Shown here: positions 11,501-44,292 of the stretch, piece by piece
Numbering within the stretch: position 1 is the first letter of the stretch
How the letters are laid out: every line of letters starts with the position of its first letter
Source of the DNA: Fibrobacter sp. UWB13
GTDB lineage: Bacteria; Fibrobacterota; Fibrobacteria; Fibrobacterales; Fibrobacteraceae
Length of the DNA stretch: 64,000 nucleotides
Direction: 5' to 3'
Assembly: GCF_900177805.1 (NCBI RefSeq)
Contig: NZ_FXAX01000001.1
Coordinates: 1,674,001 to 1,738,000, forward strand
Notes under the pieces: model-generated
Told to the model about the DNA's origin: nothing
Seen by the model: only the letters and a program-made list of their open reading frames with translations
Databases searched by the model: none
Program-made: the position numbers and the translations under genes

Positions 11501-12356
11501 TTTTCACGGTAAAGTTACAGCGTTCGGCAATCTTGACCGTATTCTCGATGGCGCCCGGGATATGCCCAAACAGCTCCACCATTTCCTTTTCGGTACGGAA
11601 ATAGAACTTTTCCGTCGGGAAGCGCTTGTCTTCAAAACCGTTCAGCGTGACCTTGAGCGAGATGCAACGCAAAATCTTATGCGACGTAGCATCTTCGGGC
11701 TTGATGTAATGGACATCGCCCACGGCAACGACTTCACGACCGTACTTTTTTGCAAGTTCCACGTTAAAATCGTTCACGCGCTTTTGCTGCGGAATTCCGT
11801 TATCGCAAACCGAGATGTACAGGTGGTCGTGGTCAAAAATCTCGTTCAGGCGGTCCATGTACTCGAGCGCAAGAGAATCCCTGCCCGAAGCCACATTCTG
11901 GCCGTAACGGCTAAAATAATCGCCCGCAATGGCGATAATGCCTTCCTTAAATTCGTTAATCGTCTCGAGCGGCACGGATGGGATTTCTGCCCAGCGCTCC
12001 CCGTCTTCGTAGCGGTAACTCACAATGCGGAGCAGGTTGTAATAGCCCTTTTCGTTCTCAACGAGAAGCGTCAATCGTTCAAATGTTGTCGGATCTTTTT
12101 GGCTTGCACTCGGCGTATCCACGTAAATGTGGCAGCCATAAACCGTCTTGACCGGCGGGAGGCCCTGTTCCTTGCGCTTTTTATTCAGTTCCTTGCCACG
12201 CGTCTGGATTTCAAGAATACCAAACATGGCACCATGGTCCGTCAAAGCAACAGCAGGTGCGTTTTCTGCCGCAGCAGCCGCCAAAATATCATCAAGTCGG
12301 GCCGAAGCCTGCAAAATCGAAAATTCAGAATGAGTCTGTAAATGAACGAACGCCAT
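8499..12356 (-). CDS. dnaE: DNA polymerase III alpha subunit
   Basis: Replicative polymerase of 1285 residues. The N-terminal PHP domain starts at HLQTHSEFSILQ, with LTDHGAMFG. The palm holds the catalytic Asp motif PDIDTDFADRDR after GPGRGSAAGSL. The fingers region has KSHAAAYAYVAYQTAYLK. The beta-clamp/OB region near the C-terminus has VVGGVVIRMRSI followed by a nucleic-acid-binding OB fold. The order and length are those of DnaE1-type enzymes. The ATG at 12356 lacks a strong ribosome-binding site; no better in-frame start precedes the conserved HLQTHSEF. It is first in a dnaE-lpxB operon. Confidence 0.97.
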   Translation of the reverse strand: MAFVHLQTHSEFSILQASARLDDILAAAAAENAPAVALTDHGAMFGILEIQTRGKELNKKRKEQGLPPVKTVYGCHIYVDTPSASQKDPTTFERLTLLVENEKGYYNLLRIVSYRYEDGERWAEIPSVPLETINEFKEGIIAIAGDYFSRYGQNVASGRDSLALEYMDRLNEIFDHDHLYISVCDNGIPQQKRVNDFNVELAKKYGREVVAVGDVHYIKPEDATSHKILRCISLKVTLNGFEDKRFPTEKFYFRTEKEMVELFGHIPGAIENTVKIAERCNFTVKTGIGDEFWPRFKIPDEFLASEEYQNIKAIMKAEYDAEYPVVRERELKGIIKDRKKKVKANYCAEKGIAEEALTDADNAEIDRLSQPEFFDEDDNKAWKKNIHRWCKEGGDADIYIIHLCNERLKWRFPDEDFKFPAHETDVGKRMYKELNCIRNMNVAGYLLIVWDFINWSREHGIPVGPGRGSAAGSLVTYIIGITDIDPLTFDLLFERFLNPERVSMPDIDTDFADRDRGRVIQYVTDKYGKECVGQIITYGMLKSKAVITDVARVLGIPPAEAKAITKLFPQRTLNFSLKQAWTGKDKKGNNLEDGYSPEPLQAMIGSRASYQNLWDVAKRLEDLPRQTGVHACGVVITPTPIYNLAPLYRAAPEDTPVVMYDKHYAEDIGLLKMDFLGLINLSIIQDTVRMVEQNRNIKLVMNKIPIDDKATFELLGKGLTTTVFQFESPGMQKYLRELKPTRIFDLIAMNALYRPGPIDQIPHFIARKNGKEEIDCYHPDLEQVLGETYGVIVYQEQVMKLAQILGGYTLGGADNIRRIMAKKMPDKMAKLEPEFFEKCEARGYDHAVIDKIWKAVLPFCGYAFNKSHAAAYAYVAYQTAYLKTHYGPEYMAASMTSKMGKTEDTVTIILECKRLGIEVLSPNINSSLGVFSANKKGQILYGLAGIRNVGIAVVEDVVAERERRGIYKDIFDFCKRVTEYQAAQPEKRPPLNKKVLECLIMAGALDDLPGSRAVQCATVDRALEVAMRSQEDKAKGQVSLFDLGGPAAIPNTAEVLEEAEEWTAMEMLNKERSVLGLFLSGHPLDEFRPELTGFTSCSLSEDEITRYVGDTVVVGGVVIRMRSIETKRGDTIGSGAIQDFQGEVEMFFKKDVWERLRDTVSIDDRVLVKGVLEQQRDRDGYQIIVEEVIQLDRVRCDMVDYIHANFTVGMLTDEFLDKLEVEMKANLADEYSHGCQMVFHLEADSGFEHVVVLKKYKVVYTQELLQWLKTDLGALKVWVSNRAKR

Positions 12357-12381
12357 GCTTGCAATTTAGCATTTTGAAAAC

Positions 12382-12405
12382 AAAAAATCCCGGACGAGTC
12401 CGGGA
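12382..12405 (-). terminator. Terminator of the double-LamG lipoprotein gene
   Basis: TCCCGGAC / GTCCGGGA (12388-12395, 12398-12405) followed on the minus strand by six T. It separates the lipoprotein gene from dnaE. Confidence 0.85.
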
Positions 12406-12428
12406 CCTTTTAGAGATTTGATGATAGC

Positions 12429-14045
12429 TTACTTAGCCTGTGTCGTATCAGCCGGAGCGACATCAACCTTGACTTCGTAGCGCGCCACAGAAGATATTCT
12501 GAGCTGGTCGAAATCACCAGAAGTCGTCAAAGGATCACTCTGAGCAAGACGTTCCATGCAGCAACCGGACTTACGGCCAATCACAATGAGGTTTTCGTTT
12601 TCACGACCACGTGCAGCAGGTTCATAACCTTTCTCATGAGCCTCGCTTGCAATCATTTCGCCATTGACCCAAAGGCTCATGAAGCCATCGCCCCACTGAC
12701 CGGCAATCAGGTTCCAATCCTTCTTGAGAGTCATCTTGCCATAAGTAAAGTAATGCGTATCGGAATGATTTTTCTGGAAGAAAAGGGTATCAAATCTTAC
12801 GAAGAAGTGAATTCTGGCACCGTCATTACCAAGAAGAGTGTGTGAAAACTTTTCATCGAAATCTTCACCCGGACGGAACCAGAATTCCACTGTGCCGGCA
12901 GGCATTTCGTCAATCAGGTTAATCCCCGTCTGGATGCTTTCGCCATCCTTGAGGGAAATAGCCTTACCGCAGACGCCTTCTACCAGCGTACCTTCGTCAT
13001 ATTCCGCTTCCAGTTCGTCGAAATAAAGGGTCTTCTCGTCCATAATAAGAGAAGAAGTCTTGCAAGTGATATCGTCCTTCTTTACGGTATCCGTTGCAAC
13101 GGTATCTTCCTTGACTTCTTCATCCTTAGTGACATCTTCCTTGACGACTGTATCCTTTTCATCAACCGGAATATCCTTAGCCGTCACAGAATCCGGCAAG
13201 GTATAACGATTGATGTTCGAGATACGGAACTGGTCGAAAGAACCCGACGTGGTCATAGCCTCGTACTGCCCTGGCCCCTCCATGCAGCAACTAGACTTAT
13301 AACCAATCACGACGAGATTTTCGAACGGAATATCACGCTGAGCAGGCACATAGCCCTTGTCATGCTCCCAATAACCGACAAGTTCGCCATTGAGCCACAA
13401 GCTCATGTAGCCATTTCCCCATTGGCCAGCGATCAAGTTCCAGTCATCTTCCTTCAGCACGGCTTTGCCCTGCACGTAGTAATGTTGGTTATGATGATTC
13501 TTCTGGAAGAAGAGTTCGCCCTTCTTGTAGAAGAAATGGATTCGAGCACCATCATTGCCAAGAAGCGTTCTTGCTTGCTTGTCAAAGAAGTCATCGTTCG
13601 GGCGGAACCAGAATTCGACTGTTCCAACACTCATAGAATCAATCAAATTCACGCCAAGCGGAGCCACCTGACCGTCGCTCAGCTTGATAGCCTTTCCGCA
13701 GACACCTTCGACCTGTTCACCTTCGTCAAAGAGGGATTCCAGTTCGTCGAGATAGCGGGTGTTCTCATCCATTTTAAGAGCCGGAGCTGCGCAACGGATA
13801 TTGGAACGAGTCGAAGTTCCAATAACAGGAGCACCTTCCTCCTTTGAAAGGGAATCGAAGTAGCTTGCAATACTGCCGCTTGCATCAATTCGAGCCCACA
13901 TGCCCTTAGCGTCATTTTTCAAATAGACGCCATCGTTTACTGTAGAGGCAAACGGATCTGAAGAGTTGGTATCGGAGCATCCTGCAACGAACGCTCCCAT
14001 TGCCACCAGGGATCCAGCCAGCCATTTTGTCATCTTACCACTCAT
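12429..14045 (-). CDS. Lipoprotein with two LamG-like domains
   Basis: A 538-residue lipoprotein with lipobox GAFVAGC (Cys23). Two copies of a concanavalin-like LamG_3 domain occupy about residues 85-282 and 328-527. Both share the run GTVEFWFRP, then TLLGNDGARIHFF, WNLIAGQWG, MSLW.NGE and the CCME turn, so they arose by internal duplication. A 35-residue acidic linker with DTV/KED repeats joins them. Such domains usually bind glycans, and the protein probably sits on the outer membrane facing polysaccharide, but no catalytic residues are visible. The ATG has GGAGA upstream and its own terminator follows. The copies differ most in the central loops. Confidence 0.88.
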   Translation of the reverse strand: MSGKMTKWLAGSLVAMGAFVAGCSDTNSSDPFASTVNDGVYLKNDAKGMWARIDASGSIASYFDSLSKEEGAPVIGTSTRSNIRCAAPALKMDENTRYLDELESLFDEGEQVEGVCGKAIKLSDGQVAPLGVNLIDSMSVGTVEFWFRPNDDFFDKQARTLLGNDGARIHFFYKKGELFFQKNHHNQHYYVQGKAVLKEDDWNLIAGQWGNGYMSLWLNGELVGYWEHDKGYVPAQRDIPFENLVVIGYKSSCCMEGPGQYEAMTTSGSFDQFRISNINRYTLPDSVTAKDIPVDEKDTVVKEDVTKDEEVKEDTVATDTVKKDDITCKTSSLIMDEKTLYFDELEAEYDEGTLVEGVCGKAISLKDGESIQTGINLIDEMPAGTVEFWFRPGEDFDEKFSHTLLGNDGARIHFFVRFDTLFFQKNHSDTHYFTYGKMTLKKDWNLIAGQWGDGFMSLWVNGEMIASEAHEKGYEPAARGRENENLIVIGRKSGCCMERLAQSDPLTTSGDFDQLRISSVARYEVKVDVAPADTTQAK

Positions 14046-14260
14046 TATTTTCTCCTACAAGGCGGTTTAACGATTTGACTATTTGTAAATTATCTATTAA
14101 TTCCTTTCTTGGCAATTTTTCATCCAACCTATTTTTGTATATTTCAGTTTACAAAGGCGTTTTTTAATCATCATGATACACTTACCTAGTAAAACGCGCT
14201 AAAAATAATGTATTTTGACATCGTACAAATTATTTGTATCATGAAAAGGACCCTCAAAAG

Positions 14261-15370
14261 ATGAGCAATACCGACAAAAAAGACCTTGAAAAAGCACCAA
14301 AAATTGCCATCGACGCACGCATGGTGAACAAGTCCGGTATTGGCACCTGTATCCAGCACTGGCTTAAGGATGTCGGCTATTCCATCGCCCTCGGCGACCC
14401 CAAGGAACTGGAACCTTATAGCAACATTCCCAAGCACATCCGCTTTATCAGTAGCATTTACGGCTACAAAGAACAGCTCAAATTCCCATACCAGGCACTT
14501 TATCGTGAAAACCCCGATATTTTGCACGTTCCGCACTGCAATGTACCTCTATTCTACCGAGGCAAGATGCTCGTGACCATTCACGACCTCACCCACCTCG
14601 TCTATCCCGAATTTTTGCCGTTCAAGCTCGTCCACTATTATTTCAAGTTCATTTTCTGGTTTGTCAGCAAGCGCGCGGACAAGATTATTACCGTTTCCGA
14701 AAGCACCAAGCGCGACCTTTTGCGATTCTACAAGATGGACGAATCCAAAATTACGGTCATCCCGCTCGGCGTAGGCAAGGAATTTGTCAAGAAATCACCT
14801 GCCGAAATCGATTATCTATACGACAAATTCAACATCCCGCGCGACAAGAAGATTTTGCTCTATGTCGGTAACTTGCTCCCTCACAAGAACTTGAACATGC
14901 TTTTAGAGGGCTTTGCCCAAATGCAGGGGCGTGAAAACTGCCGTCTCGTGCTTGTCGGAAAAGCCTTTGACGGTCGCTCCAAAGAGACTTGCGAAAAAGA
15001 TCTCGGCATTGAAGAATTCACAATCCATGCGGGAATGGTTTCACAAGAAGACCTCGTGAACTTCTACAACATCGCCGACCTCTTTGTATTGCCTTCGCTG
15101 TACGAGGGCTTTGGGCTCCCCGTGCTCGAATCGCTTGCTTGCGGCACACCTGTGGTCTGCTCCAACACATCGTCACTCCCAGAAGTGGGCGGCAAAGTCG
15201 CCAAGTATTTCGACCCGCAAGACGCCTCCAGTATCGCTCGCGCACTCGAGAATTCCATTGATGACAAGGGCAAGCACGATGATGAAATTGCGGAATGGGT
15301 CAGCCATTTCACTTGGGAAGCTTGCGCGCAAAAAATAAAGGCGCAACTAGGCGCCTTATATAAAGAATAA
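14261..15370 (+). CDS. GT4-type glycosyltransferase
   Basis: A retaining GT-B glycosyltransferase that likely adds a sugar from a nucleotide donor to a cell-surface glycan at the inner membrane. The 369 residues include IAIDARMVNKSGIG at the N-terminus, the ITVSESTKRDLL and LYVGNLLPHKNL segments, and the donor-site motif LPSLYEGFGLPVLESLACGTPVV with the E-x7-E pair. A TTG-initiated extension to 14234 is possible, but ATG 14261 has AAAAGGA upstream. It faces a minus-strand methyltransferase and a plus-strand flippase, forming a small envelope-glycan cluster. Confidence 0.9.
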   Translation: MSNTDKKDLEKAPKIAIDARMVNKSGIGTCIQHWLKDVGYSIALGDPKELEPYSNIPKHIRFISSIYGYKEQLKFPYQALYRENPDILHVPHCNVPLFYRGKMLVTIHDLTHLVYPEFLPFKLVHYYFKFIFWFVSKRADKIITVSESTKRDLLRFYKMDESKITVIPLGVGKEFVKKSPAEIDYLYDKFNIPRDKKILLYVGNLLPHKNLNMLLEGFAQMQGRENCRLVLVGKAFDGRSKETCEKDLGIEEFTIHAGMVSQEDLVNFYNIADLFVLPSLYEGFGLPVLESLACGTPVVCSNTSSLPEVGGKVAKYFDPQDASSIARALENSIDDKGKHDDEIAEWVSHFTWEACAQKIKAQLGALYKE

Positions 15371-15382
15371 AGATTAAAGATT

Positions 15383-16006
15383 TTACTTTTTGAGTTTCGT
15401 CAGGAATCCGTACTGGAACGGGATAAAATACGAATGGCTCAACAAGTTCGGCATGAACTTGAGCTGTTTGCGGATACCCACGACGCGTTCCACTTCAAGA
15501 CCGTTTTCCTTCGCAAAGCGCACAAAGCTCTTCTTTGTCCAGAACGTCTTGTGGTTGATATCGAGAACGCCAAGCGCATGTTCACCTTCATCCGGTTTAA
15601 AATAGCGGAAATCTCTCGTGATGATAATCTTGAGGAGGTTCTCGATGCAAATAAAGTTCGGCAAAGAAACGAGAATATGACCATCGGGATTCAAATGTTT
15701 CTTGCAGAAATTGATTAAATCCACCGGATCGTTCACATGTTCCAAGACATCGCACATGACCACCAAGTCAAACTTGCGGTCTTCGGTATATTCCTCATAA
15801 AATCCATGATGGTATTCGTTGAAGCCCCCCGGGACCTTGTCAATCGTCTGTGCATCGGTACGCTCTTCGGGTTCGATAGCGACCTTGTAAGAATCCTTGG
15901 GGTAAATAACGTAATTCATTCCGGCGCCCGCCCCAATTTCAAGAACGCTCCTAGCATCCTTCGGGACAAGCGTAGCAACATCATAACGAATCTTATTGCG
16001 ATACAT
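15383..16006 (-). CDS. Class I SAM-dependent methyltransferase
   Basis: A 207-residue Methyltransf_11/23-type enzyme. Motif I is VLEIGAGAG, followed by the acidic IEPEERTD, then VVMCDVLEHVNDP (motif II region) and HILVSLPN (motif III). The substrate is unknown; the neighbours suggest a sugar or lipid-linked intermediate. A longer frame reaches 16090, but ATG 16006 begins the conserved N-terminus and is preceded by a purine-rich AAAAAAGG. It is convergent with the GT4 gene (12-base gap) and divergent from the flippase gene. Confidence 0.85.
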   Translation of the reverse strand: MYRNKIRYDVATLVPKDARSVLEIGAGAGMNYVIYPKDSYKVAIEPEERTDAQTIDKVPGGFNEYHHGFYEEYTEDRKFDLVVMCDVLEHVNDPVDLINFCKKHLNPDGHILVSLPNFICIENLLKIIITRDFRYFKPDEGEHALGVLDINHKTFWTKKSFVRFAKENGLEVERVVGIRKQLKFMPNLLSHSYFIPFQYGFLTKLKK

Positions 16007-16065
16007 AAAAACCTTTTTTCTTAAATATAAATTTTTCAAAATCAAAAATGCTATTTTTGCAGTCA

Positions 16066-17007
16066 ATGGCAACCGATAAGACAGACACAAAGCTCTTTGT
16101 CAAGCGAATTATCCAGCTTCTCGTAAGCATTGGTGGTTTTGCCTACATATTCTACAAAATCCCGCTCAGCGAAGTCATCGACAACTGGAATATCGGTATG
16201 ACACCGTGGATTTTGGCAATGCTTGTCGCGGCAACGCTCGTCATGGCAATCCAGGCAAACCGCTGGAAAGGGCTTTCGGTACAAGGTCCAGAAATTCCGT
16301 TCAAGACGTACTACGCCTACACCGCCATGGGGTACTTTTTCAATAACCTGCTCCCGACCGGTTTTGGCGGCGATGCCGTGAAGTCCCTAGCATTTGGAAA
16401 GAAATTTAACCAGACCAGTCAATCCGTTTCGGCTGTATTGCTCGCCCGCATCCAAGGGCTACTTGCTATGTTCCTCTGCTTTTTCATAGCGCTCCCCTTT
16501 GCACTGAACCAAGCCGAAATTCCCATCGCCTACACCATCACGATGACTGTTGCATTGCTCGCCTGCATGGTCATTGTCGTGCTCTGCCTGTTTTCGGACA
16601 AAATCCCGATTCCCCATTTTTTTTCGGACAGGCTTGCCTTTATCCCGAAATTGCAAAACAGCCTCTCTATATATAGGAAGCATAAAAAGCAAATTTTGCT
16701 CTCGTCACTCGATTCGCTGTGGTTACAGTTATTGACGTTGTTTATAGCCTATGCCTATTTCCGGGCGGTCGGAGTCGATATCGACATCAGCATTCTAGTC
16801 GTATTCACTAGCATCACTACCGTTATTTCGATGGTTCCGATTTCACTCAACGGCATCGGTGTCCGCGAAGGGACTCAAGTGGCTCTGTTCACGGGGATTC
16901 TTGGAATTCCGGCATCGGTCGTGCTGTCCGCCGGGCTGCTAGGCTACATTCCGCTACTGTTCCAGACCGCCCAAGGTGCGGTCGTGCTCCTCGCTCGGAA
17001 AAAATAA
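16066..17007 (+). CDS. LPG-synthase-type (UPF0104) membrane protein, putative flippase
   Basis: An integral membrane protein of about 313 residues with eight or more hydrophobic segments. It has the family signatures NNLLPTGFGGDAVK, then SISLNGIGVREG-like PISLNGIGVREG and a final LLGYIPLL. The family (AglD / MprF N-terminal domain) moves or modifies lipid-linked glycans. It probably serves the neighbouring glycosyltransferase and methyltransferase. The start at 16066 (MATDKTD) is chosen because the longer form adds only six non-conserved residues; neither has a clear ribosome-binding site. It resembles the product of 21039-22055. Confidence 0.85.
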   Translation: MATDKTDTKLFVKRIIQLLVSIGGFAYIFYKIPLSEVIDNWNIGMTPWILAMLVAATLVMAIQANRWKGLSVQGPEIPFKTYYAYTAMGYFFNNLLPTGFGGDAVKSLAFGKKFNQTSQSVSAVLLARIQGLLAMFLCFFIALPFALNQAEIPIAYTITMTVALLACMVIVVLCLFSDKIPIPHFFSDRLAFIPKLQNSLSIYRKHKKQILLSSLDSLWLQLLTLFIAYAYFRAVGVDIDISILVVFTSITTVISMVPISLNGIGVREGTQVALFTGILGIPASVVLSAGLLGYIPLLFQTAQGAVVLLARKK

Positions 17008-33594: not shown

Positions 33595-33612
33595 ATTTGA
33601 TAAAACCGAGAA

Positions 33613-34587
33613 TTAAAGAGAGTTAATCTCTTCTTCGCTAAGGCCAGAAGATTTCACGATAATTGCCATCGCGACATTCTGCTCCTTAAGACTTTTTGCC
33701 ATTTCTCGAGTTTTCTTCAGTTCGCCCTCACTCACCCCTTCAGCATAACCCTCAGTTTTGCCTTGAACAAAACCTTCGGCATGACCTTCTTTCTTGCCTT
33801 CGGCAAATCCGATTTCATGTTCTGCCATCAAATCTGTCACGTTTTTAACCTCGCAGTTGAAAAGCTCTTCTGCAAAATTAATCAATTTTACCGAGTCAAG
33901 CAACCTCCGGAAGGTTTCATTCTGCATAATCTTTTCGGGAACGGGTTCCTCGTTGATAACAACCTTGATAGCGCGGAGCCACTGGGCTGCTTCGGAGTTG
34001 TCGTTCGTGGAAATTCCCTTTTCTTCGAGCCTGAAAAATTTCTCGATTTCCACGAAAATTTTTTGGATTTTCGGGAAAAACTTTCTCCCGTTGCACATTT
34101 CGTCAACATGGTGGATGTACTTTTGCGGTTCTTCAGGGAATAGCGTAAAATCCAAAAGTCCAAGGAAGTAAATGCGCGGCAGTTCATACTTTTCACTCGT
34201 ATGCACCTGATTCTCAATGACACGGGACGTATAGTATTCTACACGGTCACGATAGAAGTCATCGCCTTGTTGCTGCACTTCGACAAGCACACGCTCACCC
34301 GCATTGGTCGTTCCGATAATATCCACGATGCAGTCCTTTTTGGTGAACACACCAGGAAATTCCTGCATTTCAAGCGAGATATCCTTAATGGCATCGCCAT
34401 CATGCAAGTCAAGCATCGCGTTGACGAGCGAAATAAGGAGCGCATGGTCCTTTTCTTCGGCAAACACAATCTTGAAAATGCCGTCGCTGAGGATGTAGGC
34501 GTAGTTGTAGATTTCCTGGTACTTGAGAAGGTTCTTCTTGTCAATTTCCATTGCCCTGAGCAAGGAATAATGTTGAGCACGATTCAT
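33613..34587 (-). CDS. PD-(D/E)XK nuclease family protein (Rpn/transposase-associated type)
   Basis: A 325-residue protein of the PDDEXK_2/Rpn group. The core reads DGIFKIVFAEEKDHALLISLVN, then KDCIVDIIGTTNAGERVLVEVQQQ, which supplies the D...ExQ catalytic layout. The C-terminus carries about six repeats of the form (A/Q/S)EGxxEG (EGKKEGHAEGFVQGKTEG), typical of this family and usually coiled. The family includes recombination-promoting nucleases and mobile-element-associated proteins; no transposon ends are visible here. The start MNRAQ at 34587 is preceded by GGAG; the frame's first codon (34599) is less likely. It neighbours the defence locus. Confidence 0.85.
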   Translation of the reverse strand: MNRAQHYSLLRAMEIDKKNLLKYQEIYNYAYILSDGIFKIVFAEEKDHALLISLVNAMLDLHDGDAIKDISLEMQEFPGVFTKKDCIVDIIGTTNAGERVLVEVQQQGDDFYRDRVEYYTSRVIENQVHTSEKYELPRIYFLGLLDFTLFPEEPQKYIHHVDEMCNGRKFFPKIQKIFVEIEKFFRLEEKGISTNDNSEAAQWLRAIKVVINEEPVPEKIMQNETFRRLLDSVKLINFAEELFNCEVKNVTDLMAEHEIGFAEGKKEGHAEGFVQGKTEGYAEGVSEGELKKTREMAKSLKEQNVAMAIIVKSSGLSEEEINSL

Positions 34588-35158
34588 TTGAATCTCCAAA
34601 TTTTAAGTTATAATGGCGAAACCACGGTCGCCGTCCGGCAATCGCTTGCAAATTTTTTTAATGACACGCGTTTAACGTCCACCATTTTTACGGCAGACGG
34701 AGCTCTACGTTGATCGCCAGGGGGCCAGTTTCCCCATAGGGTGTATGCTGCCTCGAATTTTTCGCCTGTCGAGCAAAATAAAGGGAGGTCGGCGTCAAGC
34801 AGATAGTGGAACTTCCTGCCCTGAATTTATCGGCGTCGGCAGGGTTAATGCAATCTACAGGGAATAATATACCACTATCCAAACAGCGATGCAAGGGGTC
34901 GAAATTTTGCGAAAAATCAGCGACAATCCGCCTACAACCCCGTATTTAAACCAAGCTTGAAGTGCATTTTTTTACAAATCAAGATTTTTTGTAATACAAG
35001 TATTCCACCCAACTTGAAGTCAAAAAATTTGACTTCAAGTTGTTTTTTGGGGTTCAAGGCCGAAAATTTCGACCTTGAAAATCAGTAGTTTTCAAGGTCA
35101 TTTGGGTATTCAACAAAAAACGAGTCGCATTATGTGACCCGTTTCGTATTCTTTAACT
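34588..35158. other. Intergenic region with a triple CTTGAA hairpin set
   Basis: 570 bases without a gene that I support; 34600-34950 shows only scattered short inverted repeats (CCTGCC / GGCAGG). At 35011-35041 AACTTGAAGTC / GACTTCAAGTT is perfect and followed by T6 on the plus strand. At 35071-35099 GACCTTGAAAA / TTTTCAAGGTC is perfect. The first hairpin's arm is echoed at 34953 (AAGCTTGAAGTGC). Confidence 0.55.
35114..35142 (-). terminator. Terminator of the type III restriction operon
   Basis: ACGGGTCACAT / ATGCGACTCGT (minus strand, two mismatches) followed by T6, 17 bases past the res stop. Confidence 0.8.
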
Positions 35159-38100
35159 TTATGCTTTATATGGAGCTCTTGGCTCTGCCGCCATAGACCA
35201 TTCAGGTTGTTGTGGAATCTTGTATTCATCCTCCAACAGCCTTCTTTGCAAATCTACAGGGGATTTTTCGAACCATTTTTCATCTTTGTCATCAACAAAA
35301 CGATAATCGACTCCTACAGCCGCAAAGTGTTTATAACCGCAGATAATCTTTCTTGCTTCGTTAGAGTGAGGCAACGCATTGATATCTTCCGTACCTTTGG
35401 TTTCACGAACAATTTCAAGTTGTTGATTCGCTCCATCCGTTCGCAAGATAGCCCAGTCCGGATTATAATTTCCGATAATTTTGGGCAACTTGACTTTGTA
35501 TTGTGAAGGGAACTTGAAATAGAGCTGAACATTGCCTGGAGCACCAATTTCATTTAAGCGCTTGACAAAATTTTTCTCTACATTGGAATCAACTTGAATT
35601 TTATTGTAAATCGATTGATCAATATTAGCGACTTCCAATTCTGAGGCCGGAAATGTTTTGCTATCTGGGAACAATTCGTTTCTATCATCTTCCCCAGAAG
35701 ATGATGTTGGCGTGTATTCGATATACTTTGCAATGTGGTCCTTGACGACCTCACTCAAAATCTGAACAAATTGGGCAATGAACGCCTCCGGATTCCTAAG
35801 GAACTCCATTTGATGAGTTTGTTTAATTCCCTTAAAAATATTGAGAATGGTTGCTCGAGTTAAAGGAACCTCACTTGACACACGCGCAAGCAAATTCGGT
35901 TTTGGGACATCAGGATATTCAGCATCCTTACTATTTACTGTAAGTGCTTGCCCCGACTGAAATTCAAATTCTCGAGGAACATCTTTTTCCAAAGGTTCCT
36001 TGAAAATATTCACCGACACCGTTTCATCTTCGGTATTTACGGATTGTACCTTAATTTTTGCCAAAACAGCATCGGTCTTATCAACCGCTTTTCCCGCTGC
36101 AATCTCTTTCTCACTGCGGTTATTTTCAAATTTACGACCGTTAGAATCACTTATTTCAACAAGCAATGTTGCTGAACCCGTTTTCGAAATATTTTTAAGA
36201 GTAAAACGATACTTAGTCGTGACATATTGACCTTTGGTAGTCACGATTTGCGCTGGTTTAAAGGCAGCACGATTCACTTTTTCAACAGCCTCTTTTATGA
36301 GTTCTTCAGTATTGATTCGAATATTATAAGTCGTCTTTTGGTTCATTTTTGTCCAAAGGGAATCAAATTCGGGGCTATCAAATTTAGCAGTACGCTTAAC
36401 AGGCACATTTCTGCGATAATTTCCGGGTTTCGTCATATTATCGGCATTGATGCCATCTTTACGATACTCTTCATATAGTGACTTAGCATATTTCTCAAAA
36501 CTTTCGCTAGCGACTATAACAAGCTTATTCAATTCGTGATCTGTGATTCGCGTACCAGCAAATTCAGGGTGTTTTTCAGTCCCCTCCTGTACAGGTAAAC
36601 GTAGTCCACGGCCAATAGCTTGGCGTCGAGTGCCTTCGCTCTTTATCTCACGCAAGGAACAAATCTGGAATACATTAGGATTATCCCAACCTTCACGCAA
36701 AGCCGAGTGTGCAAATATGAAATGGTGCGGTTCACGCGTATCCAGCAGTTTTTCCTTATCTTGCATAATCAACTGATAAGCAGCCTTTTCCGCTTCCTTT
36801 TCATCCGTGGCAATTTTTCCACTTTCACCAATATCTATTTCGGTTTCTTCGCCAGTTTTCTTATCCCTCTTTTTGGCGAAATATGCAGTACGAACATCTT
36901 CCGCGTTCATGTCTTTAAAATGACTAGAGGCGAGTTTCATCTTATTGAACTCTTCATCAAAGATGCGTTTGATGATTGGATCTTCGCCATTATAACTTGA
37001 AACACGATCAACAAAGAATAAGCTCAGAACTTTAGCTTTATAACCTGCAGCATTTAACAAGCCTTCGCGTTCAATATGAGCTTCAATGGTATTATGAATC
37101 ATTTCCCTAAAAATGGATTCACGGCTAAGAGATGCACAACTAGATTCATCTAGACCATAGCGGAAACCATTAGAAAATTCAACATACTCGTTATCTTTTA
37201 TTGCACTAATATCGGTAACAGTTAAATCGAGATATGAATTATTTTTTGTCTTTGACTTAAGAGAATCGTTTGGCTTAAATGTTAATGTTTGGGATTTCAG
37301 AGAGCCCTCAATCTTACAATTGACCAGCATATCTACAGATAAGGGTTTCTTGTTTATTCGTTCAATCTTGAAATAGTCTTCTTTTTCAGAAGCTGCGGTA
37401 TCTTCTTCACTACCAAAAATCTCAATTTTCTTGACAAGATTCATCTGCATGGCATCGAATGGTGTCAAGTTATAGAGAAGATTGGGCGGATTTGTCCCCG
37501 GAGTTGCCGAATATCCAACACTAAAAAGCGGATGCAGAGTTCGTAAAGCTCGACGAGCTGTATCTGTCTGATAATTTTGAACTTCATCAAGAATGAGAAC
37601 GGGACGTGTTTCTTGAATGAATTCAATGGGGAGTTTGCCACCCATGATTTTGTCAGTTTCTTTGAACAGGACATTCGAAGCCTTGTTAAAAGAATCTATC
37701 GTCATGAGCATGATTTGCACAGAATTTGATTGAGCAAAATCTTTACAAGCCTTGACATTCCCATCGTATTCAATAATATTATTCGGTATCGTCCCCTGTG
37801 GGAATAGTTTGTGAAAATGCGTTCTAGTAGCATTAAACGTAGCTACCGCACCTTCGTAAATGGCTACAGACGGAACAACAACGATGAACTTGCGGAAACC
37901 GTATTTTTCACGCAGAGAATAGATAGTCCGCAGATAGACATATGTCTTACCGGTCCCCGTTTCCATATTAACGGTGAATTCTGGATAGGAATAGAAATCA
38001 AATTCACCCGTGAGCGTGTCGCCAGAATTTTGCGCACTTAGCCCACTTTGAACATCTATACCATTGCGTCGTTGGATTTGAGCAAGATTGTCAGCAAGCC

Positions 38101-38272
38101 AATATTCTTCAAAAACTTCATCCGTATTAGCCACAACATCGGCCGAAGTAATACTTTCAAAGCTCAAATCATCATCTGTGCGAGAAAGGCCATCAAACAA
38201 ATCAACAACTGCATTAACGGCTTTGATTTGGTATTCCTGATTTTCGTCAAACTTGATTTTTACCTTACTCAT
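35159..38272 (-). CDS. res: Type III restriction enzyme, Res (helicase-endonuclease) subunit
   Basis: Translocates and cleaves unmethylated DNA together with Mod. The 1037 residues include Walker A TGTGKT (105-110), the DExH-type LILDEVQNY, SAT-like FSVGYSATPG, and the motif VI region RRQAIGRGLRLP. The C-terminal nuclease has the PD...E-x-K arrangement NPDWAI...LEIVRETKG. Length and order suit a type III Res. ATG 38272 overlaps the mod stop as ATGA. It is last in the operon with the helicase, nuclease and mod genes. Confidence 0.95.
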   Translation of the reverse strand: MSKVKIKFDENQEYQIKAVNAVVDLFDGLSRTDDDLSFESITSADVVANTDEVFEEYWLADNLAQIQRRNGIDVQSGLSAQNSGDTLTGEFDFYSYPEFTVNMETGTGKTYVYLRTIYSLREKYGFRKFIVVVPSVAIYEGAVATFNATRTHFHKLFPQGTIPNNIIEYDGNVKACKDFAQSNSVQIMLMTIDSFNKASNVLFKETDKIMGGKLPIEFIQETRPVLILDEVQNYQTDTARRALRTLHPLFSVGYSATPGTNPPNLLYNLTPFDAMQMNLVKKIEIFGSEEDTAASEKEDYFKIERINKKPLSVDMLVNCKIEGSLKSQTLTFKPNDSLKSKTKNNSYLDLTVTDISAIKDNEYVEFSNGFRYGLDESSCASLSRESIFREMIHNTIEAHIEREGLLNAAGYKAKVLSLFFVDRVSSYNGEDPIIKRIFDEEFNKMKLASSHFKDMNAEDVRTAYFAKKRDKKTGEETEIDIGESGKIATDEKEAEKAAYQLIMQDKEKLLDTREPHHFIFAHSALREGWDNPNVFQICSLREIKSEGTRRQAIGRGLRLPVQEGTEKHPEFAGTRITDHELNKLVIVASESFEKYAKSLYEEYRKDGINADNMTKPGNYRRNVPVKRTAKFDSPEFDSLWTKMNQKTTYNIRINTEELIKEAVEKVNRAAFKPAQIVTTKGQYVTTKYRFTLKNISKTGSATLLVEISDSNGRKFENNRSEKEIAAGKAVDKTDAVLAKIKVQSVNTEDETVSVNIFKEPLEKDVPREFEFQSGQALTVNSKDAEYPDVPKPNLLARVSSEVPLTRATILNIFKGIKQTHQMEFLRNPEAFIAQFVQILSEVVKDHIAKYIEYTPTSSSGEDDRNELFPDSKTFPASELEVANIDQSIYNKIQVDSNVEKNFVKRLNEIGAPGNVQLYFKFPSQYKVKLPKIIGNYNPDWAILRTDGANQQLEIVRETKGTEDINALPHSNEARKIICGYKHFAAVGVDYRFVDDKDEKWFEKSPVDLQRRLLEDEYKIPQQPEWSMAAEPRAPYKA

Positions 38273-40176
38273 ATTGTTTCAACCCTACCTTTGTCCGAAA
38301 GTTGGGCATAGAGTTCATCATCAATAGCAGAATTCAAGCAGATAAATTTATCATTTTCTTCAAAAGTGATGTTCTTGACGGTTTCAGTTTTGATTTTTTC
38401 ATCAAGACATACATGCAAAACGATGGGGCGGCCCTCATCCACAATGCGATAGATTGTGTTGCCTGCCAAACTTGTAACTTTTTCGATTTTAGAATCGAGG
38501 GCAAAACCCTGACGCAGAATGATTTCAACGAGAAGTCCTTGAACATCGTTCGGGTTATTCATATCAAAACCATCGCGAAGTGGTGTTACTTGCTTTTCCA
38601 TGGAGCCAATTGCTAAGTCAAGAGCCAACTGGTCAGAACCTATTGTAGGCTTGTATGCAGCGATATTGGATTTTGCAAGGCGATAGACCTTAAAACCGAC
38701 ATCAAGTTTATCTTTTAATTCAGGATGCTCTTTGAGAATCTTTTTGCCTGCACGACGGATGCGTTCCTTGCCAATTTCGCAGATAGTATGTTTGGACTTC
38801 TTTATTGATTTTAAAAATTTAACGGCATTTTCCGCTTGCTTTTTCGAATCACCTACTCCACTTTTCGCTTCTACATCTAAATCAAACGGCATCTGAATCA
38901 TTACGAATTTTGCATTACCATACTGAAGAAGGGCATCTGCAGCAGAAGCACTACCAGAAAAGAAGTCTAAAACAATATCATTTTTCTTTACATTTGAAAT
39001 TTTATACAGATTCAAGAGCAATTTTGTCGGTTTAGGATTACTGAAAATATTTTTTTCTCCAAACAAATTTGTCAATTCATCATTTCCACCCTGATTGTGA
39101 CCAAATTGTTCATGAGTCCACCAATTAGTAGCGCACTGCCCTTCTTCTTCTCTTTCAGATTGATAATATTTTTTTCGAGGCATTCCATCTCCACCTTTTG
39201 GAAAATAGATTCTACCTTCTGCTAAAAAATGCTCATATGTAGATTTTTCACCCATCCATTCTCCAGACAACACTTTACCATTTGGTGCTACAATGTCATA
39301 TTTAGAACCAGATTGATCCGAGCCAACTTTCCAAGGTTTACTCGCCCAAGGACCTTTTGGGTCATTGTCTGGATTTGTAAAATCTGCAGTCAAATCAAGT
39401 TTACCAACACCAGCCTCTTTATACGCAGCGGAATCTTTCGCATAAACTAAAATGTGTTCCGCAACCAAGCCAATCATTTTTGTTTTGTCATTTGGTTGAT
39501 TATGGCGTCTTCTCCAATGTATATGGCCCTCAAAATTTTCTTCCCCAAAAACTTCATCACACAATAGTTTCAGATTTGCCTGTTCGTTATCATCTATACT
39601 AATGCAAATAATTCCATCCTGCCTTAAAATTTCACGAGCAAGTTGCAAACGCGGAAGCATCATGTCCAACCACTTGCGATGATAAGCACCACTGCTTTTG
39701 GGATTAGCAACAAGCGAAACACCTTTTTCATCCACTTGTCCCGTAAATTTCAAGTAGTCTTCTACAGGTTCAGCAAAATTATCGGGATAAATAAAATCCT
39801 TACCCGTATTATACGGAGGGTCGATGTAAATCATCTTAACACGACCACCATAGCTCTTTTTCAAGCAACGCAGAACTTCAAGGTTATCACCTTCGATATA
39901 GATATTGTTGGTTTTATCTTCATTTACGCCATCACCAGGAACGGGTTCAAGCGTACCCTCCGCTGCTTTACGAGCCAATTTCTTAGCATTCCTTTTGCCC
40001 GGCCAATAAAGGTTGTAACCAACATCGCTTTCATCATAAGATTCAGCATCAAATAAATCCTTTAATGCTTCTGTATTCAGTTTTCCATCTCGCACAAGTT
40101 CTGGATAGAGTTGCTTGAGAGCTTCAAAGCGTTCGTCTTTGGGAGCCGTAGCATCCATAAAAGAATTGCGTTCCAT
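38269..40176 (-). CDS. mod: Type III restriction enzyme, Mod (DNA N6-adenine methyltransferase) subunit
   Basis: Recognises the site and methylates one strand. The 635 residues show the catalytic motif IDPPYNTGKD (119-122) before the SAM motif DFFSGSASAADALL, the order of beta-class enzymes. The target-recognition region lies between them (WRRRHNQPNDKTK to GQCATNWWTHEQF). The start MERNSF has GAGAGGA upstream. It sits 13 bases after the nuclease gene and overlaps res by four. The recognition site cannot be read from sequence. No phase-variable repeat tract is seen in the gene. Confidence 0.95.
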   Translation of the reverse strand: MERNSFMDATAPKDERFEALKQLYPELVRDGKLNTEALKDLFDAESYDESDVGYNLYWPGKRNAKKLARKAAEGTLEPVPGDGVNEDKTNNIYIEGDNLEVLRCLKKSYGGRVKMIYIDPPYNTGKDFIYPDNFAEPVEDYLKFTGQVDEKGVSLVANPKSSGAYHRKWLDMMLPRLQLAREILRQDGIICISIDDNEQANLKLLCDEVFGEENFEGHIHWRRRHNQPNDKTKMIGLVAEHILVYAKDSAAYKEAGVGKLDLTADFTNPDNDPKGPWASKPWKVGSDQSGSKYDIVAPNGKVLSGEWMGEKSTYEHFLAEGRIYFPKGGDGMPRKKYYQSEREEEGQCATNWWTHEQFGHNQGGNDELTNLFGEKNIFSNPKPTKLLLNLYKISNVKKNDIVLDFFSGSASAADALLQYGNAKFVMIQMPFDLDVEAKSGVGDSKKQAENAVKFLKSIKKSKHTICEIGKERIRRAGKKILKEHPELKDKLDVGFKVYRLAKSNIAAYKPTIGSDQLALDLAIGSMEKQVTPLRDGFDMNNPNDVQGLLVEIILRQGFALDSKIEKVTSLAGNTIYRIVDEGRPIVLHVCLDEKIKTETVKNITFEENDKFICLNSAIDDELYAQLSDKGRVETI

Positions 40177-40189
40177 TTGGTAATCCTCT

Positions 40190-40996
40190 CTAATTTTCGT
40201 TTAAATTTCCTTCAATAAATTCGTCGTTTTCTTCGGCAGAATTCGTCATGTACTTGAGCATGTTGTTTTTTGTCGCACTGCGAGTTTTTTTCATGTATCC
40301 CACAAACGAAGAACAGGAATAGCGAACATCGCAGTTATGGCAAACATGCGTTGCAAAGTTGAACTTCATTCCCGGCATTTTTGTTTCAAGTCGAGAAACT
40401 TCAGGTGGCTTAAATTCCGAATTTTCAATATGTTCTACGGTGTTGCCGAAATTTTCAATCATATCAGCAACTTCGTCTTCGTCATATCCAAAAGGAATAA
40501 CCGGTTGCCATTTATCAAATTCTTTTTGAAGCCTATCTTCGTTTCCTTCTTCAAGTGCTCTTTTTAAGGTAGTTGGAAGTGGTGTTGCAATAACAGCAGT
40601 GTTGTCAAGTTTATTTTTCTGTAGCCCCTTCCAAATATGAGCGTATATATTCAGCTGTTCCTTGTATTTTTGAGGCTCAGCCTTGATGCGTTCAGGTTCA
40701 TGAGTTTTCAAATCATAAAGCCATGTTTGTTCACCTTCGCGCACAATATCCACAATTCCTTCAATTGTATAAGGAATTTTATCCTTGGGCGTTTTCTGTT
40801 CAGGAAGAGACAACTTTACTTCAGCTCGTGTAATCTGCTCTATGATTTTCTTATTCTTGCGGTAATAGCAGAGAACTTGCTTGAACGCAAGTTCCTTCAT
40901 ATAATCATTAATGGTATGTCCTGCATTTTCGCGTAAAAAACGGAAATTGTCTTCAAACATTTCACGAAGTTTTTTCTCAAATTCAGACTGATTCAT
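40190..40996 (-). CDS. RecB/AddB-type PD-(D/E)XK nuclease, C-terminal half of a split helicase-nuclease
   Basis: A 268-residue protein with the nuclease core GIVDIVREGEQTWLYDLKTHE (Asp83, Asp95, Lys97), the QLNIYAHIW helix of the RecB family (Gln114), and the iron-sulfur motif CHNCDVRYSC (C219-x2-C222-x5-C228) of AddB and Cas4. The fourth Cys needed by that cluster is not here but in the upstream ORF (CPRNY, Cys835). ATG 40996 directly follows the helicase TAA in the same frame and has GGAGG eight bases upstream, so it is coupled. It probably acts with the helicase to degrade DNA ends. Confidence 0.88.
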   Translation of the reverse strand: MNQSEFEKKLREMFEDNFRFLRENAGHTINDYMKELAFKQVLCYYRKNKKIIEQITRAEVKLSLPEQKTPKDKIPYTIEGIVDIVREGEQTWLYDLKTHEPERIKAEPQKYKEQLNIYAHIWKGLQKNKLDNTAVIATPLPTTLKRALEEGNEDRLQKEFDKWQPVIPFGYDEDEVADMIENFGNTVEHIENSEFKPPEVSRLETKMPGMKFNFATHVCHNCDVRYSCSSFVGYMKKTRSATKNNMLKYMTNSAEENDEFIEGNLNEN

Positions 40997-43627
40997 TTAG
41001 CGTCCCTCCATCACAAAATTCTGAAGATCTTCTACAGTTTGGTGAACTAAAGAACCAAAGAACATTGTTTGGCTACGGCTTGGCACAAAGCCATATTTGT
41101 GGAACACCATATAATTGCGAGGACAATTATTATAGGGCAAGTAATCTGCTGTATAGGTATAGACATGTGGAAGTCTGTCCGATGCATCTTCTGATTCCGG
41201 GAATGTATTGACCTCAAACTTCTGACATGATTCAAACTTACAGTCCTCAACCAATGTTTTAAATGGACTATAGGTCGCTTGTCCTTGGCCTCTAAATTGC
41301 GGAAGAATCAGTAAATTTTTCGCACGCGACAACGCAACATAGAACATGCGCATAGTATCGTAGGCATCCATCGAATCTAGAGGTTCGCACACCGTCGGCA
41401 ATATGCCTAGATGCTCTTGCATATTGCGAACAACGACATCTAAAGTTCTCGGAGGCCTCGTATTGTGCGAAAGCGAACCTAAAATAACTACAGGGAATTC
41501 CAAGCCCTTAGATTGGTGGACAGTCAAGAACGGCACACACCCCTTTGGGAACGGATCGTCAGCATCTTCGTATTCCGTTTCGTTCAGGCGGAATAGCGAA
41601 TACATATACGAGCCAAAGAAAACCTTGCGGATGATATCGCCATCAAATGTTGAACCCGAAAGAATTGGGTTCGTCGTTTCTTGATATTGGGCAATGTATT
41701 TTGTTATCATTCCAAGATTATAGAGACCCGAATCTTCACCACCATTTTCTGCAAGCTCATATTTCTGTGAAAAATACTCAAAGCTGTTGAGTTTATAGAA
41801 CAAGTCAAGCAGAGTCCAGTCCATAGCGGTTGCACGAGAAAGAGCGTATGAAACATGTAACGGTTTGCCGTCTTTTCCTCGACGCGTTGTAAATGCAAGC
41901 AAATTTTTGCTCATCAGCACCCTTCGAACGGAATCTTCAATCTTAGGAATTTGAGCAAACTTTTTGAGCAATGTTACTGTCAATTCTGAATCTGTAGCAA
42001 TTCCATTTTTTTCGCAGAATTCTTTAAGACTCCTATAGTTTTCTTTACTTGATTTAATTGCATTTTGGGTATCTTCAATAAAGCTCTTTAAAGACTTGTC
42101 GTGACCTATGATTTTTTCTGCAGCTTCAAGAGCTGCTTTGTTCCAATTTGAGTAATCCTTCATCCCGCCATAAGCACAATCAGCTGATGTGTACTTGAAT
42201 ATTTTTGCAAAAAGGCCGAACGTAATTAGAGATTCTTCCGTGTACAAGAAGTTTTTAGCACGTGGAGCATAATACTTGATACCAGCCTCGTCTAAAGCAT
42301 CTGCAAAGGCCTGAACTTTGGGAGCCATTTGACCACTAGCGTTGCCACGAATGGTAGGGAACAAAAAAGCACACTGATTGTAATCTTTGATTTTGCCTGT
42401 TTCCTTCAATTTTTTGATAAGGGCAACAACATTTCCGGCGACGATTTTTTTGTCGCCAGACTCAAAAACAACAGATGTCTGAAAGTCTGTGCTGTGAGCT
42501 GTGATATTTTTGTTTTGAATTCTGAAAAATTCGTTGTGCTTGGTGGGATTTTTCCATGAAACAAGATCAATAAACTTGGTGTAAGTATCAACAATCTGTT
42601 TACGAGAACGATAGTTGATATTCAAGTCTATTCGCGTTGGCCTTACGCCTATTGCCTTAGCGCAAATATTTTCAAAATCAACTAAGTTTTCTACGGTCGC
42701 TCCACGGAATCGGTACAAAGCTTGGTCATCATCACCAACAACACAAATGTTCTTCGTTCCTTCCGCAAGTTTTAGGTAAATTTTCTGCTGAATCGTATTT
42801 GTATCTTGATATTCATCAACGATTACATGCTTGAACACCGAGCCCGCCTCATTCTTATGACAGATGTACTCGTAAGCCCGCTGTTGTAATGTTGAAAAAT
42901 CTACTCGGTCTACACCATCTTCTTTAAGGCTTTGCCGATAAAGAGAAGTCATCTTGAAAAGTTTAGACAGAGTCTTGTCCCCAAGGTCCAAAGCAAATTC
43001 TTGGTCACTAAAATTCTCTTCACTCATGCGATTGAAGAAAGAAATGCAGTTGGTGATAGCATCGGTACGAGAAGCCGAATTATTCTTACGCGAATCAAAC
43101 CACCCATTTATTTCCTTGTATGAATCAGTGTTTTTTTCAGCTTCAAAGCCAGATTCTAGGAGTAATTTATTAAAATGGTCACGCACAAAAAGAAACTGTC
43201 CAAAATCGTCCATAATGAGCGGGCGACGACTGCGTAAACCATGTTCTTTGAAACGTCGGTCTGTTAAAAGTTTTTGACACAGAGAATGCAATGTTCCCAC
43301 ATACATTTCTGCAATGTCGTAAGGTTTATGCGTATATAAACTCGCTATGGAAAGCAGTCCCTGCAAGCCCTGCTTTAACTGCAAGGCTGCCTTTTCGGTG
43401 AATGTAGCGAGGAAAATTTCATCTGGCGACACATTTTCAAAAACAATCAGGTTTACACAACGCCAAAGCAAAACACGTGTTTTACCAGAACCAGGTCCCG
43501 CAGTCAATAAAAGTGGGCCCCTGGTATTTTCGATAGCCATTTTTTGATTGTCATTCGGTTTAAACCCTTTTTTTAAGAAAAGGGAATCCAAAGAAACACC
43601 ACTACACTCTGATGAGTGAGCCGTCAT
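40997..43627 (-). CDS. UvrD/AddA-type helicase ending inside a nuclease domain
   Basis: An 876-residue superfamily 1 helicase. It has Walker A AGPGSGKTR (43-51), LATFTEKAALQLK, IVDEYQDTN, VVGDDDQALYRFRGAT, the INYRSR motif, LTVHQSKGLEFPVVILGSLS and FYVALSRAKN. The last 42 residues (CPRNYMVFHKYG...MFFGSLVHQTVEDL) are the beginning of a RecB-type PDDEXK_1 domain, including its first Fe-S Cys (835) and His (862). The domain then stops at TAA and resumes in the next ORF. The start at 43627 (MTAHSSECSG) has a GAGG upstream and fits better than the longer frame to 43717. First gene of the operon. Confidence 0.9.
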   Translation of the reverse strand: MTAHSSECSGVSLDSLFLKKGFKPNDNQKMAIENTRGPLLLTAGPGSGKTRVLLWRCVNLIVFENVSPDEIFLATFTEKAALQLKQGLQGLLSIASLYTHKPYDIAEMYVGTLHSLCQKLLTDRRFKEHGLRSRRPLIMDDFGQFLFVRDHFNKLLLESGFEAEKNTDSYKEINGWFDSRKNNSASRTDAITNCISFFNRMSEENFSDQEFALDLGDKTLSKLFKMTSLYRQSLKEDGVDRVDFSTLQQRAYEYICHKNEAGSVFKHVIVDEYQDTNTIQQKIYLKLAEGTKNICVVGDDDQALYRFRGATVENLVDFENICAKAIGVRPTRIDLNINYRSRKQIVDTYTKFIDLVSWKNPTKHNEFFRIQNKNITAHSTDFQTSVVFESGDKKIVAGNVVALIKKLKETGKIKDYNQCAFLFPTIRGNASGQMAPKVQAFADALDEAGIKYYAPRAKNFLYTEESLITFGLFAKIFKYTSADCAYGGMKDYSNWNKAALEAAEKIIGHDKSLKSFIEDTQNAIKSSKENYRSLKEFCEKNGIATDSELTVTLLKKFAQIPKIEDSVRRVLMSKNLLAFTTRRGKDGKPLHVSYALSRATAMDWTLLDLFYKLNSFEYFSQKYELAENGGEDSGLYNLGMITKYIAQYQETTNPILSGSTFDGDIIRKVFFGSYMYSLFRLNETEYEDADDPFPKGCVPFLTVHQSKGLEFPVVILGSLSHNTRPPRTLDVVVRNMQEHLGILPTVCEPLDSMDAYDTMRMFYVALSRAKNLLILPQFRGQGQATYSPFKTLVEDCKFESCQKFEVNTFPESEDASDRLPHVYTYTADYLPYNNCPRNYMVFHKYGFVPSRSQTMFFGSLVHQTVEDLQNFVMEGR

Positions 43628-43915
43628 ATACAAAACCTCATTTAATACGATATCCCCTAAAATCTCTCGAGGTCTATTACAGAACGCATCGAAACAGAGA
43701 CTAAAGCAAATACCCAATAAAAACGAACGCTTTTGAATTCCTTGACAAGCTCAGAAAACAGAAGCTATGTTACCTTGTAAAATAGCTCTTTTTTTACAAA
43801 CAGGAATAAAAAAATGCTTTTTTGCATCATTTATAGTCGCTTAATCATCCGATACACAGTCAAAAAGCAATTTGCATATTTTGCAAATTCCTAAAAATCT
43901 ATTTTTCGCCTAGCT

Positions 43916-44110
43916 ATGACTTTCAAAATAAGAAACATCCCCATTCTCACAGGTCTTGTTGCAGAATCATTTATTCAAAATGCAGAAGAACGCGAGAAAC
44001 ACCCTCGCCATCAAAAGCTCAAGGTATCATTTGCCCAAATTGACGAAATGGAAGCACGCAAGCACTCTTATTTAAAAGAGCATAACGGGAAAAATCCGTT
44101 TAGTGTTTGA
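43916..44110 (+). CDS. Small hypothetical protein
   Basis: A 64-residue basic, mostly helical peptide (AEEREKHPRHQKLKVSFAQI, MEARKHSYLKEH) followed directly by a 9-bp inverted repeat GAACCTGTG / CACAGGTTC (44109-44117, 44127-44135). No clear Shine-Dalgarno sequence, but the codon choice and the trailing hairpin make it plausible. It could be a regulator or an antitoxin-like protein; there is no toxin-like partner. Confidence is limited. Confidence 0.45.
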   Translation: MTFKIRNIPILTGLVAESFIQNAEEREKHPRHQKLKVSFAQIDEMEARKHSYLKEHNGKNPFSV

Positions 44111-44292
44111 ACCTGTGAAAAAATTGCACAGGTTCAAAGCTCCACAGCACATACTCCCATAGATAGCCCACATCATTTACATATCCTGAAAAGGCTTACA
44201 ACTGTGGTTTACAGAATTAACGTATTGCAAATCTCGTAAAAATTTCTAAACTTTCCATGGATTGAATAAACAATACCAGGCAGGTTAGATTT

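Follow-up and report, generated by a model that had tools for sequence, protein, structure and literature searches.

The window (the whole stretch of DNA that was analysed, 64,000 nucleotides from Fibrobacter sp. UWB13) carries a minus-strand operon in the gene order helicase, nuclease half, Mod and Res, in which the helicase gene stops inside a nuclease domain that the following gene takes up again. The features that the analysis relies on are:

40997..43627, minus strand: UvrD-type SF1 helicase, 876 aa, its C-terminus being the first part of a nuclease domain (Pfam)
41000..41134, minus strand: N-terminal stretch of the PD-(D/E)XK domain, residues 832-876 of the helicase chain (PDDEXK_1 match of the read-through protein, starting at residue 832)
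41125-41123, minus strand: codon of helicase C835, invariant in 75/75 loci
41044-41042, minus strand: codon of helicase H862 (GxxxH), invariant in 75/75 loci
41005..41009, minus strand: GGAGG, which likely serves the nuclease gene as ribosome-binding site (sequence)
40994..40999, minus strand: TAA-ATG gene junction, in one frame in the window (sequence, compared over 75 loci)
40190..40996, minus strand: nuclease half, 268 aa, with D83, D95, K97, Q114, Y118 and C219/C222/C228 (CxxCx5C) (PDDEXK_1 profile 83-246)
38269..40176, minus strand: type III modification methyltransferase, Mod (Pfam N6_N4_Mtase 2.4e-29; PADLOC MTase_III 2.4e-165)
35159..38272, minus strand: type III restriction subunit, Res (Pfam ResIII and RE_endonuc; PADLOC REase_III 6.4e-167)
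33613-34599, minus strand: PDDEXK_2 transposase-family (Rpn-like) gene, inside the inserted segment that also holds the operon
33599..44177, no strand: segment of ~10.6 kb with the four-gene operon and the PDDEXK_2 gene; the site lacks it in the congeneric genomes G004 and G001

The helicase belongs to the UvrD SF1 class by Pfam (UvrD-helicase 5.3e-52, UvrD_C 7e-20), and Mod and Res are complete genes of a type III restriction-modification system by both Pfam and PADLOC. PADLOC gives the helicase chain no more specific name than UvrD/GajB-like helicase and labels the nuclease chain, weakly, DruK/Cas4. The helicase reading frame ends in ...QNFVMEGR and the TAA at 40999-40997, which is abutted in frame by the ATG at 40996-40994, with the GGAGG at 41009-41005 sitting 8 nt upstream of that ATG. 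This arrangement had been proposed in a preliminary description, according to which the helicase ends within a PDDEXK_1-type domain while keeping Cys835, an in-frame TAA-ATG with its own GGAGG follows, and the second protein holds the remainder of the domain (D83, D95, K97, the QLNIYAH helix and the three cysteines of CxxCx5C); the residues, the coordinates and the junction all proved correct. The GxxxH histidine H862 on the helicase chain is a further motif residue, absent from the earlier list.

Recurrence of the break among relatives

Among 84,980 species genomes scanned there were 80 loci, at 75 of which both halves can be read as separate genes (the window and whole-genome loci counted in). 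All 75 break at one place, the helix-helix loop that follows directly on the G-[ST]-L-V-H helix, and since the same point recurs in every split relative the break is more than chance. The two-gene loci come from at least 14 phyla (Fibrobacterota, Spirochaetota, Bacteroidota, Chloroflexota, Cyanobacteriota, Bacillota, Planctomycetota, Pseudomonadota, Nitrospirota, Acidobacteriota, Ignavibacteriota, Omnitrophota, Kryptoniota and Shapironibacteriota), and the split is also found in one Diapherotrites archaeon MAG. The preliminary description had suggested comparing relatives at the stop codon, and in that comparison the close relatives in Fibrobacterota (G003, G025, G032 and G107) were all split, with the halves in different frames, and none was fused, the fused forms being confined to a distant clade and to the L089/L122 protein (see below).

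These data bear on the idea that a recent nonsense mutation or a sequencing error broke a single helicase-nuclease gene, as the in-frame TAA-ATG of the window and the existence of a distant clade with both parts on one chain might suggest. Because the split is conserved over 75 loci and at least 14 phyla, a recent mutation is excluded and the broken-gene reading already stands refuted, the close relatives being split as well, most pairs lying out of frame and the catalytic residues being invariant in both halves; we give it practically no credence. The break is ancient, not recent.

The geometry of the junction varies. The halves lie in different frames at 68 of the 75 loci and in one frame at the other 7, with stop and start codons abutting in only four of the latter; the frame is open through the TAA in the window and in L006, L033 and L056. 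Measured from stop to start, the spacing comes to -4 nt at 30 loci and -1 nt at 14, so that 44/75 loci have overlaps of 1 or 4 nt, and apart from three widely spaced loci the offsets range from -23 to +25 nt. A GGAGG or AGGAGG precedes the nuclease gene at 16 of the 75 loci, and the core motif is absent at 33. The in-frame TAA-ATG layout is therefore itself incidental, overlapping genes in different frames being the rule in most relatives. In the three widely spaced loci (L048, L077 and L078) the halves are 684-813 nt apart, and in the latter two, from two Clostridium species, an AHSA1-family gene lies between intact helicase and nuclease genes (L077 7255-7848, L078 7267-7734).

It could be argued that stop read-through, or a change of frame at the overlap, nevertheless yields a fused helicase-nuclease, as the frame is open through the TAA at four loci and short overlaps could permit slippage. 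Read-through or frameshifting is not the general mechanism, because 68/75 pairs are out of frame, 44 have overlaps of 1 or 4 nt and at three loci the halves are separated by 0.7-0.8 kb; the range of offsets, and the pairs with an entire AHSA1-family gene in the gap, fit no one recoding scheme, and we regard this explanation as very improbable. The same three gaps indicate that translational coupling is not obligatory. Separately, in-frame stops occur within Res or helicase genes at L020 (4267-4270, Treponema), L023 (13369-13372, Spirochaetales) and L054 (7153-7156, Chloroflexi), and are possibly decay or sequence errors.

Residues and predicted structure of the divided domain

When the chains were scanned apart, Pfam PDDEXK_1 matched the nuclease half only (profile 83-246 of 247, 34.8 bits), whereas the match to the read-through protein spanned both chains (profile 10-246, residues 832-1105) and rose to 52.9 bits, over the 22-bit cut-off for pfam12705 (Cas4-like nuclease). 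On the helicase tail C835, H862, D867, Y823, Y832 and Y839 are invariant in 75/75 rows. In the nuclease half, 79/79 rows of the residue alignment have D95 and K97, and 78/79 have D83, Q114, Y118, C219, C222 and C228, the exception being one gapped row. The four conserved cysteines of the AddB/Cas4 Fe-S type (one N-terminal, CxxCx5C C-terminal) are thus present, on two chains, and no further cysteine column of at least 30% was found among the alignment columns of the nuclease half. Because the ligands are invariant on each chain and the nuclease half has no fourth cysteine column, the complete residue set of an Fe-S PD-(D/E)XK nuclease exists only over both chains, with no spare set on either. 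This supports the earlier proposal that one Fe-S nuclease would need cysteines from two chains, and a nuclease reading frame with its own full cysteine set, named there as the contrary case, did not occur.

Structure prediction points in the same direction. AlphaFold2 was given the helicase tail and the nuclease half with the stop as one residue and a 64-row alignment; the alignment used drew on the L089 fusion and on the four loci that read through naturally in one frame, and a mixed alignment of tails and nuclease halves misaligned the halves and was dropped. The joined model reached a pLDDT of 88.5 and a pTM of 0.82, values to be read with the one-residue join in mind, as it favours contact between the chains, and it places the break in the loop between helices at model residues 42-62 and 69-91. 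In structural comparison it comes closest to the nuclease domain of AddB, 4cei_B (Z 16.4, rmsd 4.2, 271 residues), with model residues 7-304 aligned on chain residues 785-1138, followed by AdnA (Z 15.5) and ACE1 (Z 13.7), so the joined domain is predicted to adopt an AddB-like fold. Without the tail, the nuclease half matched 4cei_B with 207 residues at Z 9.0, the alignment not beginning until chain residue 851, so the AddB part that it lacks (785-850) comes from the helicase tail. The Fe-S ligands of B. subtilis AddB are C801, C1121, C1124 and C1130, with C801 in the part that the nuclease half is missing. Confidence in the Fe-S stretch was lower for the nuclease half alone (blocks 83/78) than for the joined model (86/91). 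Sequence searches of the PDB turned up nothing homologous to the nuclease half, the weak Duffy-receptor matches looking like chance. Covariation between the chains (top-10 mean 0.26 versus 0.17 with shuffled pairing) is not counted as evidence, because shared phylogeny explains the difference.

The same data speak to the alternative that the two proteins work apart, with the tail a relic and the nuclease half a free-standing nuclease or an inactive partner. The nuclease half alone is a confidently predicted fold (pLDDT 88.5) and the genes are separated at three loci; set against this, C835, H862, D867, Y832 and Y839 of the tail are invariant in all 75 rows, unlike a relic, and neither a fourth cysteine nor the AddB 785-850 part is present in the nuclease half, so that separate action seems improbable. 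Taken together, the conservation of the split over phyla, the invariance of the ligands and the modelling of the joined sequence as a single AddB-like domain argue that two proteins very probably come together to make the nuclease, and that it is not a broken gene.

Fused relatives, gene neighbourhood and proposed function

Helicase-nuclease fusions of the UvrD-Cas4-like type were described in 2017, with type III Mod/Res as their commonest context (Hudaiberdiev et al. 2017, PMC5704561); uvrD and cas4-like genes that are not fused figure in that paper too, mostly from Clostridiales and in a non-defence context, and no divided domain is described there. Beyond it, a literature search that took in few subscription papers and preprints found no report of a split UvrD-Cas4 or of a two-chain AddB-type cluster. 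Among the relatives, fused UvrD-nuclease proteins of ~950-980 aa with Mod- and Res-like neighbours occur in Fibrobacter (L009, L119-L121), a Bacillota genome (L117, near which no Mod-like gene was found in the contig DNA examined), a Pseudomonadota genome (L118), a plasmid (L097) and a phage (L096); all eight have the residue layout of the split pair, and they agree with the fusions described in 2017. The plasmid and phage searches returned distant fused relatives only, and a search of viral contigs no relative. On the Enterococcus faecium plasmid pXD5 (L095, 5266-8164) the fused form is divided into two annotated genes at another site, inside the helicase; other Enterococcus plasmid matches list a single helicase gene.

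In the helicase tree 62 split rows are separate from 8 fused rows, and the L089/L122 fusion falls on the split side, on a long branch with weak support; a single clade of all split rows was not rejected by the AU test (p 0.81). This fusion (6956-11668, from a Methylococcaceae MAG) is a natural helicase-nuclease protein of 1571 aa with ~550 extra aa at the C-terminus that have no Pfam match, and Mod and Res are absent from its reach. The simplest history would be one fission, its direction not being proven, with L089/L122 as a re-fusion or a surviving fused ancestor.

Mod and/or Res lie in reach at 58 of 79 loci, with Mod directly adjacent at 39, and about 21 have neither in the available DNA, several of these being short contigs. 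Other neighbours are HerA and NurA (L037), a HerA-like gene (L056) and the type I gene HsdM (L064). The partner is thus not always a type III system, and these neighbours suggest that the pair is a module of several systems. Near the HerA-NurA genes and the split helicase-nuclease of L037 lies a gene (11796-16544) for a 1582-aa protein with FHA, TIR, EAD2, TPR, response-regulator and nucleoside-phosphorylase domains. In Fibrobacter the ~10.6-kb segment is missing from the same site in G004 and G001, with the flanks adjacent in L123 and L124; its PDDEXK_2 gene has 13 matches in the whole genome, one copy being 93% identical, and strong matches to the system occur in 5/168 Fibrobacterota-phylum genomes, this genome counted. 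The segment fits a mobile defence gene set.

A two-chain nuclease might also form but serve host DNA repair or recombination. Its fold kinship to AddAB/RecB and the loci with no restriction-modification genes in reach are compatible with such a job, against which stand the patchy distribution, the insertion at an otherwise empty site and the frequent adjacency of Mod/Res; we judge it unlikely, if the most credible of the alternatives. We consider it highly likely that the products of the two genes form a helicase-nuclease that is an obligate heterodimer, built on an SF1 helicase, and that would degrade DNA as an accessory to restriction. In this heterodimer, the end of the helicase chain would contribute the first helices of the AddB/Cas4-type domain, with one Fe-S cysteine and the GxxxH histidine, and the small second chain the remaining three cysteines together with the beta-sheet core that bears D, D-K, Q and Y. 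The chains may associate during synthesis from coupled genes, stapled by a predicted 4Fe-4S cluster (1 Cys + 3 Cys), and the nuclease would be inactive until both are present; the helicase would then feed it single strands, so that unmodified DNA opened or marked by Mod/Res is degraded, much as RecBCD and AddAB finish off restriction-cut DNA. More broadly, a single ancient fission may well have given rise to widespread obligate two-chain PD-(D/E)XK nucleases in which neither the cluster nor the active site exists before the chains assemble, a safety lock on a defence machine that degrades DNA.

We know of no Fe-S nuclease with active site and cluster ligands divided over two polypeptides. If the proposal is true, the pair would be a natural split nuclease, its activity switchable by assembly, and a new accessory module for type III restriction; in annotation its two chains are likely to appear as an ordinary helicase and a PD-(D/E)XK protein with no link to it.

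Comparison with known systems

The operon resembles classical type III restriction-modification in its complete Mod and Res genes downstream, but those systems have two genes and this one has two more. Cas4, Dna2 and ACE1 are structural matches that likewise combine a PD-(D/E)XK fold and cysteines of the Fe-S type, yet carry all ligands on one chain. AddB and AdnA of AddAB/AdnAB are the best structural matches and have the same layout of four cysteines and GxxxH/D/DxK, whereas the AddB nuclease is on one chain, the window operon is without an AddAB-like second helicase subunit and the window helicase scores 107 bits against the TIGR02785 (AddA) cut-off of 707.65, which places it outside AddAB. 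Like the UvrD-Cas4-like fusions (PMC5704561), the pair combines a UvrD SF1 helicase with a pfam12705 nuclease, commonly beside Mod/Res; unlike them, it is not one polypeptide, the domain being cut in two at the 75 two-gene loci and the helicases forming a separate clade. By these comparisons, the window system appears to be a split sister clade of the UvrD-Cas4-like fusion family and would work as that family does.
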